Assembly: GCA_902521615.1 (NCBI GenBank)
Contig: CABYSJ010000002.1
Location: 1-64,000 of the forward strand
DNA: 64,000 nt
Origin: an uncultured Pelagibacteraceae bacterium
GTDB lineage: Bacteria; Pseudomonadota; Alphaproteobacteria; Pelagibacterales; Pelagibacteraceae
Direction: 5' to 3'
Position 1 is the first letter of the stretch. The number at the start of each line of letters is the position of its first letter. Positions 28,708-33,843 of the stretch are shown piece after piece. A program made the position numbers and the translations under genes. Under the pieces are notes generated by a model. The model saw nothing but the letters and a program-made list of their open reading frames with translations, ran no database searches and had not been told where the DNA came from.

Positions 28708-30000
28708 ATGTTTTTACACACAAAATTAGAGACCAGAACTGATCCAATTAGAATAGCTTTTATTGGATGTGGAAAATTTGTCAGCATGTTTTTGGCACAA
28801 TATAATCATTTAAACAAAATACAAATTGATAGCATTGTTGATATTAATATAAATCAAGCTAAAAAAAATTGTTTAAATAGCGGTCTAAGTTCTGAAAGCA
28901 TAGAACAAATTAATTTTTCAAACTCATTAGATGAAATTTTAGAAAGAAATATAGAAATCTTTATAGAAGCTACAGGAAATCCAATTATAGGCACAGTGCA
29001 TGCAGATAAAATAATTAAAAATAATAAGAATATAATTTTAGTGAATGTTGAAGCTGATATTACATGTGGAAAATATCTTTCAGATCTAGCTAAAAAAAAC
29101 AATGTTATTTGTTCAATGGCTTATGGTGATCAACCTTCATTAATTTTAGAACAAATTGAGTGGGCAAGATTAAATGGGTTTGAGGTTATTTGTGCAGGAA
29201 AAGGTACCAAATATCATCCAACATTTGAATATTCTACACCCGATACAGTTTGGGGGCATTATGGTTTATCTAAAGAAAGAGCAGAAAATGAGTCTGGCAT
29301 GAACCCAAAAATGTTTAATAGTTTTTTGTGTGGAGATAAATCTGCTATAGAAATGTGCGCTGTAAGTAATGCTGCAAATCTAAAATGTCCTAGTAATGGT
29401 TTAACTTTTCCCCCTGTTAGTGTTTACGATATTGCTAAGAAAATGATTCCTAAAAAGGATGGAGGATTAATTGATAGTGAAGGGCAGGTAGAGGTAATTT
29501 CAAGTATTGATTTAGAAAAAAAAGATATTGAAAATGATTTAAGATGGGGTGTTTACATTGTTTTAAAAGCAAAGAATGAATACGTAAAAAATTGTTTCAA
29601 AGATTACGGAATGGTCACAGATTACTCAGGTAATTATTCTGCTATCTGGAGACCTTATCATTATATAGGATAAGAACTTGCTCAATCTATCTATTCAATA
29701 GCTTTAGATAATAGAGCAACTGGTTTTACAAAAAATTACAATGCTGAAGTTGCTAGTATTACAAAAAAGGATTTAAAAAAAGGTCAAAAACTTGACGGTG
29801 AGGGTGGATTTTGTGCAAGAGGTAGACTGATAACTTCAGAAAAATCAAAAAAAGAAAAAATATTGCCGTTAGGTCTTACTGATAATGCTATATTAAAAAA
29901 AGATATTAGTAAGGATGAAATAATTAAATTAGAGGATGTAGACCTTAATTTACCAAAAGAGGTAGTAGAGGCTAGAGATTATCAATACAATTTAATATAG
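28708..30000 (+). pseudogene. NAD(P)-dependent homoserine dehydrogenase-like / SAF-domain oxidoreductase, interrupted by in-frame TAA at 29671-29673
   Basis: 28708-29673 encodes a Rossmann N-terminal part ending ...WRPYHYIG*; the same frame continues 109 codons (ELAQSIYSIALDNRATGFTKNYNAEVASITKKDLKKGQKLDGEGGFCARGRL...) to TAG at 29998-30000. Confidence 0.8.
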
Positions 30001-30029
30001 TTGAGTTATAAATAATTGAATATATAACA

Positions 30030-30088
30030 ATGAAATTCATAAATGCCCTCGTGGTGAAATTGGTAGACACAAAGGACTTAAAATCCTT
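30030..30088 (+). repeat. Left 59-bp direct repeat: orphan 5' half of tRNA-Leu(UAA) with 13 bp of upstream sequence
   Basis: atgaaattcatAaatgccctcgtggtgaaattggtagacacaaaggacttaaaatcctt; matches 32206-32264 with a single mismatch; no 3' half follows. Confidence 0.95.
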
Positions 30089-31308
30089 TAAAGATAAAAT
30101 TTATTATCTTCGTTAACAGCTTTTTCTAATCTTATTAAAAAATCTGGTATAGCGCTCTTAACTCTACTCCAAGTTGGTATAAATGGAGCATCCATTGGAT
30201 TTAAATAAAAATCTTCTCCTGCTTTAATTATATTTTTAGAAAATAATTCTACAGCCTTTTCTTCAGAATGAGAGTCAAATTTCAAACCATTCATTTCAGC
30301 ATCGCCACGATAAGCGTCAATTAAATCAAGTGCTGACCTATAGTAAGTTGCTTTAAGTGATCTTAATTGCTCTCTACTAAATGAGTGACCTTGTGTAGCA
30401 AGTTTTTTTATAAAGGTTTTTATTATATCAATGGACATTCTTGAAAGACCTTTATTTTCATCATCAGAAGATAAATCCTGATGTTTATGGTCATAAGTAT
30501 CAGCTAAATCAACCTGACAAATATTTTGAGGAGAAAAGTTTCTTTGCATTTCCGACAAAATTCCAATTTCTATTCCCCAGTCTGATGAAATTCTTAATTC
30601 GGGTAGAATATTTCTTCTAAAAGAAAATTCTCCAGCTAGTGGATATTTAAATGATTTCATAAAATCTAAATATTCACTTTTTCCAATAGTTTTTTCTAAA
30701 GCGTTTAATAATGGAAATACTAAAAGTCTTGCTACTCTTCCGTTCATTTTATTATCAGCAACTCTTGGATAGTAACCTTTGCAAAATTCAAAATTAAATA
30801 AGGGATTTACAACTGGATAAAATAATTTTGCCAACATTCTACGGTCATATGTTTTTATATCACAGTCGTGTAAAGCAACAGATCTAGCGCTGTTTCTTGC
30901 TATAGACATTCCAATACAATACCAAACGTTTCTTCCTTTACCTTTTTCATTCGGTGCTAATGATTTTGTTTGTAATTCTTTATCCAATTTTTTTAAATTA
31001 GGACCATCATTCCATAATATTGTAAACGGAGTTTCTAATTTTTCAAAAAAAGTCCAGGCCTTTCTCGCCTGTTTTTCATTAGCCTGATCTAACCCTATAA
31101 TAATATGATGCAGGTAATTAGTTTTAGAAATTTCAGAAACTATCCTTGGTAAAGCATCACCGTTTAATTCACTATAAAGACACGGTAGTATCAGTTCCAT
31201 TTTTCTTTCTTTTGAAAAACTCAAAAGTTCTTTTTCTATTTGCTTTGTTGACTTTGTTCCAAAATCGTGAAGTGTTGAAATAATACCGTTTTGAGAAAAA
31301 TCACTCAT
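30088..31308 (-). CDS. Glucosyl-3-phosphoglycerate synthase-like glycosyltransferase
   Basis: LPCLYSELNGDALPRIVSEI, IIIGLDQ, ALHDCDIKTYDRRMLAKL, WGIEIGILSEM, QVDLADTYDHKHQ; paired with an MPGP-like phosphatase. Confidence 0.8.
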   Translation of the reverse strand: MSDFSQNGIISTLHDFGTKSTKQIEKELLSFSKERKMELILPCLYSELNGDALPRIVSEISKTNYLHHIIIGLDQANEKQARKAWTFFEKLETPFTILWNDGPNLKKLDKELQTKSLAPNEKGKGRNVWYCIGMSIARNSARSVALHDCDIKTYDRRMLAKLFYPVVNPLFNFEFCKGYYPRVADNKMNGRVARLLVFPLLNALEKTIGKSEYLDFMKSFKYPLAGEFSFRRNILPELRISSDWGIEIGILSEMQRNFSPQNICQVDLADTYDHKHQDLSSDDENKGLSRMSIDIIKTFIKKLATQGHSFSREQLRSLKATYYRSALDLIDAYRGDAEMNGLKFDSHSEEKAVELFSKNIIKAGEDFYLNPMDAPFIPTWSRVKSAIPDFLIRLEKAVNEDNKFYL

Positions 31309-31319
31309 ATTATATTTTA

Positions 31320-32126
31320 TTAATTTTTATTTATTTTAACTAGAGCCATTTTAATCACATCTGTCCAGCCCTGAGGTGATGGCTTGTTAGTTGCAATCAA
31401 ATTATTTATAGGAATTTCATCTAAAGTGAATTCATCATTAAATACCAAGCAGGGATAATCACTTATTTTAAGCATTTCTAGGTCATTATAATTATCCCCC
31501 ACAGCTATTGTTTTTACATTTTTATGATATTTTTTATAGAATCTAACAAATACTTGAAGAGCTTTAGCTTTGTTTGTTCTGTCTGTTAAATTAATCACTC
31601 TTCCACCTTCTTGTAAGAAAAGACCTTCTGTTCTTATAATTTTCGATAATTGATTTTTTTCAGTTTTGGTTCCGTTAAATATAAATGGAATTGTGTATTT
31701 ACGATTTAAAGCTAAATTCAATTTTTCATCATCTAAACCAAAAATTAAGCTTTGCCTTTTCTTTTCCATACTAGAGACCCACATGCATTTATTTTGTAAA
31801 TTTATTGGAACAATTTTTTTAAAAATATTTAAAAGATTATCTTTTTCTCGACTTAGAATTAATTCCTTTGGTAAATCTGAATTTAATAAGTTCAAACCAT
31901 TTATTGCTGCTCCATTTTCTGAAATAAAAGGCAAATTTGAACCTAACTCGTAATTAAATTCTAAAATTTCTTTCTCCGTTTTGCTAGTGTTAGGTATAAT
32001 ATAAATACCTTTAGAGATTATTTCTCTCAAATAATTTTTTATTTCATCAAATTTGAATGTATCTCGATGAAGAAGTGAACCATCAAGGTCAGTAAATATT
32101 AAAACTTTGAATATTCTTTCCATCAA
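31320..32126 (-). CDS. Mannosyl-/glucosyl-3-phosphoglycerate phosphatase-like HAD hydrolase
   Basis: FTDLDGSLLHRDTF, NTSKTEKEILEFNYELG, FISENGAAI, AVGDNYNDLEML. Confidence 0.82.
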   Translation of the reverse strand: MMERIFKVLIFTDLDGSLLHRDTFKFDEIKNYLREIISKGIYIIPNTSKTEKEILEFNYELGSNLPFISENGAAINGLNLLNSDLPKELILSREKDNLLNIFKKIVPINLQNKCMWVSSMEKKRQSLIFGLDDEKLNLALNRKYTIPFIFNGTKTEKNQLSKIIRTEGLFLQEGGRVINLTDRTNKAKALQVFVRFYKKYHKNVKTIAVGDNYNDLEMLKISDYPCLVFNDEFTLDEIPINNLIATNKPSPQGWTDVIKMALVKINKN

Positions 32127-32205
32127 TTAATATTTATAAAAATATTCAAAAATAACAATTTTACATATTAAGCTTGTTGAAATATAAATAATAGCATAAA
32201 TACTC

Positions 32206-32264
32206 ATGAAATTCATTAATGCCCTCGTGGTGAAATTGGTAGACACAAAGGACTTAAAATCCTT
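32206..32264 (+). repeat. Right 59-bp direct repeat, includes the 5' half of intact tRNA-Leu
   Basis: One mismatch (A30041 vs T32217) to 30030-30088. Confidence 0.95.
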
Positions 32265-32306
32265 GCCGCTTGCGGAGTGCCAGTTCGAGTCTGGCCGAGG
32301 GCACCA
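32221..32306 (+). tRNA. tRNA-Leu(UAA)
   Basis: gccctcg...cgagggc acceptor stem, anticodon loop cTTAAAa, variable arm, GTTCGAGTC T-loop, encoded CCA. Confidence 0.96.
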
Positions 32307-32310
32307 CTAA

Positions 32311-33081
32311 ATGAGTAAACTTCATATTATTTCAGATAAAAATAAAAAATCTTCAAAGATTAAAAATTTATTAATAAAAAAAATTAAGTCTAATAATTTT
32401 AAAAAAGAAAATCTGATTATTGTAATTGGTGGTGATGGTTTCATGCTTCAAACCCTTAAAAAGAATAAAAATTCTAACAAACATTTTTATGGGATTAATT
32501 CTGGAAATTATGGATTTCTTATGAATAAATTTTCATCTAAAGATATTATTAAAAATTTATCGAAAGCAAACTTGGTTACAATTTCTCCTCTAGAAATGGT
32601 AGTTAAAACTAGAAATAATCAAATTAGAAGATCTATAGCAATTAATGAAGTGTCTGTTCTTAGACAAAGTAGACAAGCGGCCTCGTTATCTATTAAACAA
32701 GGCTCAAGACAAGTGATTAAGAATTTAGTTTCAGACGGAGTATTAGTATCAACACCTGCAGGAAGCACAGCTTATAATCTTTCAGTACATGGACCTATCT
32801 TAAGCCTTCATTCAAAAAAATTATCAATATCACCAATAAGTGCATTTCGACCAAGAAGATGGAAGGGTAAAATTGTTAACGATAAAACAAAAATAGTTAT
32901 AAACAACTTAAACCCAATTAAGAGACCTATTAGTGCTGTTGCAGATAATTTAGAAGTAAGAAATGCTAAATCAATTACAGTAAAAACTAACAATAAAATA
33001 AAGTTTAATCTTCTTTATGATAAAAATAGAAGTCTACAAAAAAAAATTAAACTTGAACAAATAAGAAGAGAAACTAGTTAG
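32311..33081 (+). CDS. nadK: NAD kinase
   Basis: VIGGDGFMLQTLKK, NSGNYGFLMN, DGVLVSTPAGSTAYNLSVHGPI. Confidence 0.94.
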   Translation: MSKLHIISDKNKKSSKIKNLLIKKIKSNNFKKENLIIVIGGDGFMLQTLKKNKNSNKHFYGINSGNYGFLMNKFSSKDIIKNLSKANLVTISPLEMVVKTRNNQIRRSIAINEVSVLRQSRQAASLSIKQGSRQVIKNLVSDGVLVSTPAGSTAYNLSVHGPILSLHSKKLSISPISAFRPRRWKGKIVNDKTKIVINNLNPIKRPISAVADNLEVRNAKSITVKTNNKIKFNLLYDKNRSLQKKIKLEQIRRETS

Positions 33082-33348: not shown

Positions 33349-33843
33349 ATGAAACGAAATGGTTTCACGCTTATAGAACTCTTAGTCGTTGTAGCAATCA
33401 TTGGCATTCTAGCTGCAGTAGGAGTTGTCGCTTATGGTGGGTATACGAGTAGTGCCAAAGTAACTGTAACAAAATCTAATCACGCAAATGTTGCTAAAAT
33501 TATTCAAGCAGAAATTATGAGATGTAGCTTAGGTGAGGATCCAAGATTGTCAAAAGGTATTAATCTTACATGCAATGAAATTAGAGTTAAAGCAATATCA
33601 GATCCTTGGTATTTAGCAACAAAGTTCGCTCAGCATTTTTCAATTATACACAATAATACAGGAGAATGGAAAAATGTATTTGACGATGGAGCAGGAGTGC
33701 AACCTACAAAGAATACACAGTGTAATCTTAATACTTTTGGTCAATCAAGTATCGCAGGGAGGCAAAATAAAATAATTGTTATTACTAGATATGGAACAGG
33801 AAATAGTGATTGTCTCAGTACAGATGTATCTACTGAGTTTTAA
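33349..33843 (+). CDS. Type IV pilin-like prepilin
   Basis: KRNG^FTLIELLVVVAIIGILAAVGVVAYGGY prepilin peptidase site plus hydrophobic helix. Confidence 0.93.
   Translation: MKRNGFTLIELLVVVAIIGILAAVGVVAYGGYTSSAKVTVTKSNHANVAKIIQAEIMRCSLGEDPRLSKGINLTCNEIRVKAISDPWYLATKFAQHFSIIHNNTGEWKNVFDDGAGVQPTKNTQCNLNTFGQSSIAGRQNKIIVITRYGTGNSDCLSTDVSTEF

Follow-up and report, generated by a model that had tools for sequence, protein, structure and literature searches.

We found that the 2.1-kb segment between a half and a complete tRNA-Leu(UAA) gene in an uncultured Pelagibacteraceae genome was best explained as one allele of a hotspot of integrase-less cassettes at the Pelagibacter tRNA-Leu(UAA) gene, serviced in trans and also subject to homologous recombination (a probability of roughly 0.7). 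The window, that is, the whole stretch of 64,000 nucleotides that was analyzed, had the following features at this locus:

28,708-30,000, plus strand: DRL-type oxidoreductase gene, the left neighbour (PF21135, E 1.3e-47)
30,001-30,044, no strand: native DRL-type tRNA upstream region, aligning with the DRL-tRNA intergenic sequences of L066/G082 and L090/G131
30,030-30,088, plus strand: left direct repeat, the tRNA-Leu(UAA) 5' half (30,045-30,088 = tRNA positions 1-44) with 15 bp upstream
30,088-31,308, minus strand: gpgS-like glucosyl-3-phosphoglycerate synthase gene, 406 aa (NF040724 GpgS_Meth)
31,320-32,126, minus strand: mannosyl/glucosyl-3-phosphoglycerate phosphatase family (HAD-IIB) gene, mpgP, 268 aa (TIGR01486)
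32,127-32,220, no strand: cassette-type tRNA upstream region, now upstream of the complete tRNA
32,206-32,264, plus strand: right direct repeat, the 5' half of the complete tRNA (attR-like)
32,221-32,306, plus strand: complete tRNA-Leu(UAA), the reconstituted attachment site (ARAGORN)
32,311-33,081, plus strand: NAD kinase gene, the conserved right flank of the hotspot (NF003406, E 2.5e-93)

The first-pass annotation, made from the letters of the window alone, had described a 59-bp direct repeat with a single mismatch at 30,030-30,088 and 32,206-32,264. This was confirmed: the copies were identical at 58 of 59 positions, a match beyond chance, and the draft genome (31 contigs, 1.2 Mb) had no other copy. 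The repeat covered tRNA positions 1-44, namely the 5' half, the anticodon loop and the 3' side of the anticodon stem, and ended at position 44, the last base of this stem. Its annotated extent through the anticodon stem was correct, but the 13 bp of upstream sequence measured 15 bp. Upstream of the two copies, the sequences diverged. As had also been annotated, only the right copy ran into a complete tRNA (the one tRNA-Leu(TAA) found by ARAGORN), and the ~2.1 kb between the copies consisted of two minus-strand genes, with no integrase or transposase between 30,089 and 32,205; the single PF00589 match of this genome was on another contig (contig 1). We inferred that the left repeat was an attL-like scar of the interrupted original tRNA. 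With partial tRNA repeats around the cargo and one intact tRNA, the locus met a criterion for additive islands, and it failed the criterion for phages and satellites that an element should carry its own tyrosine integrase.

The flanks pointed to different sources. The DRL gene marked what we called the DRL-type attachment site, since the tRNA came directly after it in G082 and, in G131, it was followed by a tRNA half. The native upstream region (30,001-30,044) did not align with the window's own right-copy upstream region. The latter (32,127-32,220) had the same layout as the sequence upstream of the tRNA in the gpgS-mpgP alleles L059, L061 and L071 and, for L064 and L081, upstream of the half, and judging from these comparisons it would have arrived together with the cargo. 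Since the left junction matched the G082 and G131 alleles and the right upstream region matched other gpgS-mpgP alleles, the segment was incoming rather than a local duplication. The NAD kinase gene, which adjoined tRNA-Leu in most relatives, was located 4 bp to the right of the tRNA and was G213-like over its whole length. The DRL-type left side, the cassette-type right side and the G213-like NAD kinase together implied that the joining of the segment took place precisely inside the tRNA. As a separate observation, the DRL gene of the window had an in-frame stop at codon 322 (29,671-29,673), whereas its copies were uninterrupted in the four relatives examined; a real nonsense mutation and an assembly error could not be distinguished.

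Of the 250 genomes of the genus, 186 had a match to the tRNA query, and the flanking sequence was read at 110 loci including the window's own. These loci were a non-random sample with a preference for a good tRNA match and enough flanking sequence, and the cassette counts were lower bounds because contig ends cut many loci on the left. A tRNA-Leu 5' half preceded every one of the one to three segments present at 59 of the 110 loci; in total there were 75 segments of 0.2-10 kb, three of which had an integrase. An empty allele was present in G082 (L066; one contig, 99% complete), with the DRL gene, 47 bp, the intact tRNA and the NAD kinase in this order. Another one (L037), with 123 bp from GGCT to the tRNA, was found in G161, a genome that core genes placed among the nearest to that of the window. 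In G131 (L090), the DRL gene, which was the closest to that of the window (92%), was followed by a tRNA half and then by 1.0 kb of other cargo that included a MORN-repeat gene. No gpgS was present in G213, to which the window's genome was closest by core genes. The closed genome G284 contained gpgS-mpgP, a half, a 15-kb segment, a second half, a 1.8-kb segment and the tRNA, and thus arrays were not an artefact of draft genomes.

Accordingly, cargo and cassette number varied among close relatives and empty alleles existed (from the tree and occupancy), as was required of an additive island. The first-pass annotation had suggested aligning the locus across SAR11 for empty sites or other cargo, and its inference would have been refuted if all close relatives had carried the same two genes and the same half with no such alleles, which was not the case. 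It had read the segment as a minimal tRNA island whose mobility gene was lost or acted in trans, or which was exchanged by homologous recombination. The alleles described above and the autonomous elements at the same tRNA supported this reading, although the genus-wide cassette array, the mosaic nature of the window cassette and its missing leader had not been foreseen. We also considered identity with the hypervariable regions HVR1-4 of HTCC1062 (Wilhelm 2007) and rejected it since their gene content differed; without direct mapping, the tRNA-Leu hotspot seemed to be another locus.

The cassettes had a common format. In 60 of the 75 segments, at least two iteron-like AGTCY motifs were located within 80 bp of the half, and in an alignment nearly all of the integrase-less ones among these (~57 cassettes) shared a conserved leader of ~170 bp. 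This leader followed the half tRNA and contained three AGTCY iterons, which matched the att arm of satellite elements. When a strict threshold was applied, leaders were found in 2 of the 14 genera of the family. At its end, the leader carried two near-identical repeats of ~8 bp exactly 11 bp apart and then a AGAGAGATAATATAAT-like box (e.g., L064:7792-7960, L082:10144-10312 and about 50 further cassettes). Such a pair, matching at 7 or more of 8 positions with the 11-bp spacing, was present in 54-55 of 60 segments, compared to 0-3 cassettes for other spacings, and its sequence varied between cassettes. The leader end resembled, as far as sequence alone can tell, a promoter with cassette-specific operators. 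A structured RNA was not supported (four pairs, no compensatory change), and no Rfam family was found in the leader. Two ORF-less segments of 228 and 236 bp (L083:11788-12015 and L187:7706-7941, tRNA-forward orientation) consisted of the leader and the tRNA upstream region alone and were minimal, MITE-like cassettes. At L070:9948 and L090:10993 the half tRNA was followed by other repeats (CTCGTGTAGT or CTAGTGTAGT, twice), which may suggest a second integrase family at the same site. The cargo was diverse: 128 of 215 ORFs had no relative among the rest, and the matches included type IIG and other DNA methylases, an Mrr nuclease, a caspase domain, an autotransporter, trypsin and M16 peptidases, an ABC permease and an ion channel.

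In three relatives (G202, G120 and G168), the same locus was occupied by autonomous elements of 7.7-10 kb, in each case between a half and a complete tRNA-Leu(UAA). These integrase-bearing segments were satellite-like elements, and all three had a RusA-like gene. Namely, G120 and G168 contained intact int-primase-RusA elements, and G202 contained an int-RusA element with an unidentified 768-aa ORF at the place corresponding to the primase. In G120 and G168, the iteron block of the cassettes made up the first ~50 bp after the half. Their primase was related to that of L123, a 7.7-kb circle from IMG/VR with a 99-bp terminal repeat. Besides the half tRNA (attP) and three AGTCTC iterons, L123 had genes for an integrase of 545 aa (phrog_1, E 4e-20), the primase and a RusA-like protein. 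In the cassettes of relatives, a tblastn search detected no integrase or phage genes at the first 60 loci and three integrases in the larger set. The PF00589 matches in 60 genomes were located elsewhere and mostly represented an Xer-like core gene of ~307-325 aa.

The half tRNA was also found in phages. An exact 31-bp part of it without the 3' half was present in 21 of 23 virome contigs, and podophage-like contigs had an integrase-sized ORF (282-297 aa), the half tRNA and a large RNA-polymerase-sized ORF in this order. In the cultured pelagiphage HTVC105P, the half (93% over 58 bp) was located between the annotated integrase and the RNA polymerase. Thus, the criterion that the attachment half should be the attP of known elements was fulfilled by HTVC105P and the virome contigs. 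It is known that T7-like cyanophages use a half tRNA-Leu as attP (PMC8776855), that tRNA-Leu is a pelagiphage target (PMC3861242, PMC6811365), and that group III pelagiphages use tRNA-Leu(TAG). Separately, two virome contigs each had a complete tRNA-Leu(UAA)-like gene (L125:3748 and L136:6216, oriented); in L125 it adjoined a putative family A DNA polymerase gene, like the tRNA-like match in Chosvirus KM23C739.

We proposed that the crossover would occur at the 7-nt anticodon loop. Upon each insertion, the old tRNA 5' half would stay on the left as a scar, and on the right a new 5' half would be brought in along with a promoter of its own, so that the tRNA would remain functional and usable for the next insertion. 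The cassettes might be moved in trans by the tyrosine integrases of satellite-like elements, and perhaps of pelagiphages, that use the same half-tRNA. Since most cassettes lacked an integrase but had the att arm of the satellite integrases, movement in trans was most likely; this was a strong inference, and there was no demonstration of it. In the window, the gpgS-mpgP cassette would have been placed into the DRL-type tRNA-Leu site that was empty in G082, and homologous recombination would also have replaced or exchanged a part of it. The precise insertion layout, the empty and alternative alleles, the arrays, the autonomous elements at the same site, the shared iterons and the mosaic were direct observations.

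The window cassette itself was atypical. It failed the criterion for a leader cassette, since no iterons followed the half and the sequence there was the end of gpgS, whose stop codon started at the last base of the half tRNA. No clear leader copy was found in the window's own genome. The junction between the half and gpgS was present in 7 of 399 genomes; the window-type junction occurred in G093, G122, G022, G050, G092 and G238, and decay of the half had advanced to a varying extent among them. Among G022, G093, G122 and G050 the nucleotide identity was 95-97% for gpgS, 93-97% for mpgP and 97-100% for the intergenic sequence, compared with 79-87% for the NAD kinase, and thus the cassette had spread laterally among these genomes. 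In a sliding comparison, the window was 94-99% identical to G093, G022 and G122 (92-98% to G050) at ~30,110-30,710, and to the right of these left ~700 bp the identity of its cassette dropped to ~75-94%. The window cassette was therefore a homologous-recombination mosaic, which ruled out vertical inheritance of the whole cassette as one unit.

This mosaic also fitted an unlikely alternative, namely that homologous recombination alone formed the locus. In that case, a DRL-tRNA chromosome would have recombined with donor DNA carrying half-gpgS-mpgP-tRNA, by way of the 44-59 bp of identity at the tRNA, and no integrase would have been involved. The sharp identity drop within gpgS near 30,700-30,800, the left end without an iteron leader and the heavy recombination of SAR11 (PMC7542561) were all consistent with it. 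However, this would require two crossovers inside the ~86-bp tRNA, since the NAD kinase was G213-like and the left flank was DRL-type, and dozens of other cassettes were located at the same point with integrase arm sites. We inferred that the left junction of the window arose by site-specific recombination and not by RecA-mediated exchange, but this was not demonstrated and there was no evidence of excision. Because the leader was missing there, no trace of an integrase arm was left at this junction. In G088, gpgS-mpgP directly followed GGCT and the left half was absent, suggesting that the pair may once have been an ordinary chromosomal segment. The leader-less junction, the mosaic, the G088 allele and the lack of gpgS in virome contigs and (for two patterns) of the leader junction in IMG/VR counted against the trans-serviced cassette hotspot. 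The leader-junction pattern likewise had no match in GTDB genome contigs, but this collection probably does not contain the records concerned, as leaders were found by another genome search.

It was improbable that the segment was a decayed satellite or prophage, i.e., an integrase-bearing element that had lost everything except two cargo genes. Such decay would fit the autonomous elements at this tRNA in three relatives and the tendency of streamlined genomes to delete non-coding DNA, but the window cassette contained no phage or satellite remnant, the scarcity of integrases among the segments was not accompanied by any partial integrases at the loci, and no allele combining the gpgS-mpgP cassette with an intact or broken integrase has been found so far at the loci of relatives. 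Moreover, the leader was common to most cassettes, whereas the autonomous elements had only its first ~50 bp, suggesting a separate non-autonomous lineage rather than decay. Finally, one could invoke the 31 contigs of the draft and the different closest relatives of the left and right flanks for an origin without any mobility, either by an assembly artefact or by local duplication of the 5' half of the tRNA. This was hardly credible given that the sequences upstream of the two copies differed and each matched another allele in other genomes, that the independent genome G093 had the same 110 bp across the left junction, and that the closed genome G284 had the same kind of array. A chimera of two strains was also rejected because there was no single switch of the closest relative along 22-37 kb, although read-level proof was lacking.

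With respect to the cargo of the window cassette, the 406-aa product matched NF040724 GpgS_Meth with E 1.2e-109 and 367 bits, below the 700-bit cut-off, and the 268-aa phosphatase matched TIGR01486 MPGP with E 1.6e-45 and 155.4 bits, just below the cut-off of 164.75. Thus, both genes failed the criterion for a GpgS and GpgP/MPGP pair that requires scores above the curated family cut-offs. Their PDB relatives were weak but consistent (3f1y and 7p5l for gpgS; 1wzc, E 2.7e-13, for mpgP). The products appeared to belong to families homologous to these enzymes, their exact substrate being unproven, and from family membership the pair likely makes glucosylglycerate, which was also unproven. The gpgS protein was far more conserved than that of mpgP between the window and G093, G022 and G122 (98-99% versus 82-83%), partly because the cassette was mosaic. 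The gpgS gene was present in ~78 of the 250 genomes of the genus and was located outside the tRNA-Leu locus in some of them (e.g., G077, G054 and G004). Glucosylglycerate is a cell-protecting sugar compound, and its synthesis is reported to be an offshore-specific trait of SAR11 genera (PMC12636525), found here on an exchangeable cassette. The locus represented a concrete and testable route by which one tRNA gathers niche genes (osmolyte synthesis, restriction-modification, transporters, surface proteins and proteases) via a non-autonomous format with a probable phage-satellite helper.

A broader reading, to which we gave even odds, was an integron-like SAR11 cassette system on a phage attachment site, where standardized non-autonomous cassettes that are captured and moved in trans by satellite integrases would account for much of the gene-content variation of the genus at this locus. 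The format would then comprise the half tRNA, the ~170-bp leader with iterons, the repeat pair with a -10-like box, the cargo and the tRNA promoter. Similar to integrons, small gene cassettes formed arrays at one site; in contrast, the window cassette had no integron integrase, the site was a tRNA, and the cassettes had a leader and a tRNA promoter. Cis-mobilizable elements (CIMEs) consist of att-flanked cargo without an integrase and undergo tandem accretion with an integrase-bearing element. By analogy, the SAR11 cassettes would resemble them in these respects, but no conjugative partner was present at the SAR11 locus and the presumed helper was satellite- or phage-like.

The locus also resembled the additive flexible genomic islands of streamlined plankton, where small cassettes are added at a tRNA with a partial tRNA repeat each. 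Such tandem tRNA additions with partial repeats are known from fGI-2 at tRNA-Lys of Ca. Methylopumilus (PMC10872708) and from Ca. Actinomarinales (PMC7771536). However, the SAR11 locus repeated the tRNA 5' half rather than the last 20 bp, integrase-type iterons were present in a ~170-bp leader shared by its cassettes, and the site was also occupied by autonomous elements that had the same arm. HTVC019P-type pelagiphages and T7-like cyanophages likewise carry a part of tRNA-Leu beside the integrase (PMC6811365, PMC3861242, PMC8776855), in the latter the first half, but the window cassette and 72 of the 75 cassettes had no integrase, and the tRNA was TAA rather than the TAG of group III pelagiphages. 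Tycheposons of Prochlorococcus are 4-200 kb and have a tyrosine recombinase inside (PMC10872708, PMC11389934). Like them, the SAR11 cassettes were marine, carried cargo, used tRNA genes and had a proposed relation to phage satellites (without a homology comparison); unlike them, they had no recombinase and were 0.2-6 kb in the main sample, with one of 15 kb in G284. No prior description of this SAR11 locus, the shared leader or the integrase-less majority was found in the open-access papers that were searched, subscription papers not being covered; the standard leader and the missing integrases thus appeared to be new features, although priority was not certain.

Several minor observations concerned the right side of the locus. 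In G180, the NAD kinase was adjoined by a 3' tRNA-Leu fragment (L070:13201-13256, positions 31-86), and the complete tRNA was located 1.1 kb upstream; here the insertion was on the opposite side of the anticodon loop. Extra DNA between the tRNA and the NAD kinase was present in several genomes. Additionally, type IV pilin-like genes occurred as variable repeated copies around tRNA-Leu and the NAD kinase in the window (33,349-33,843) and in L067, L078 and L240.
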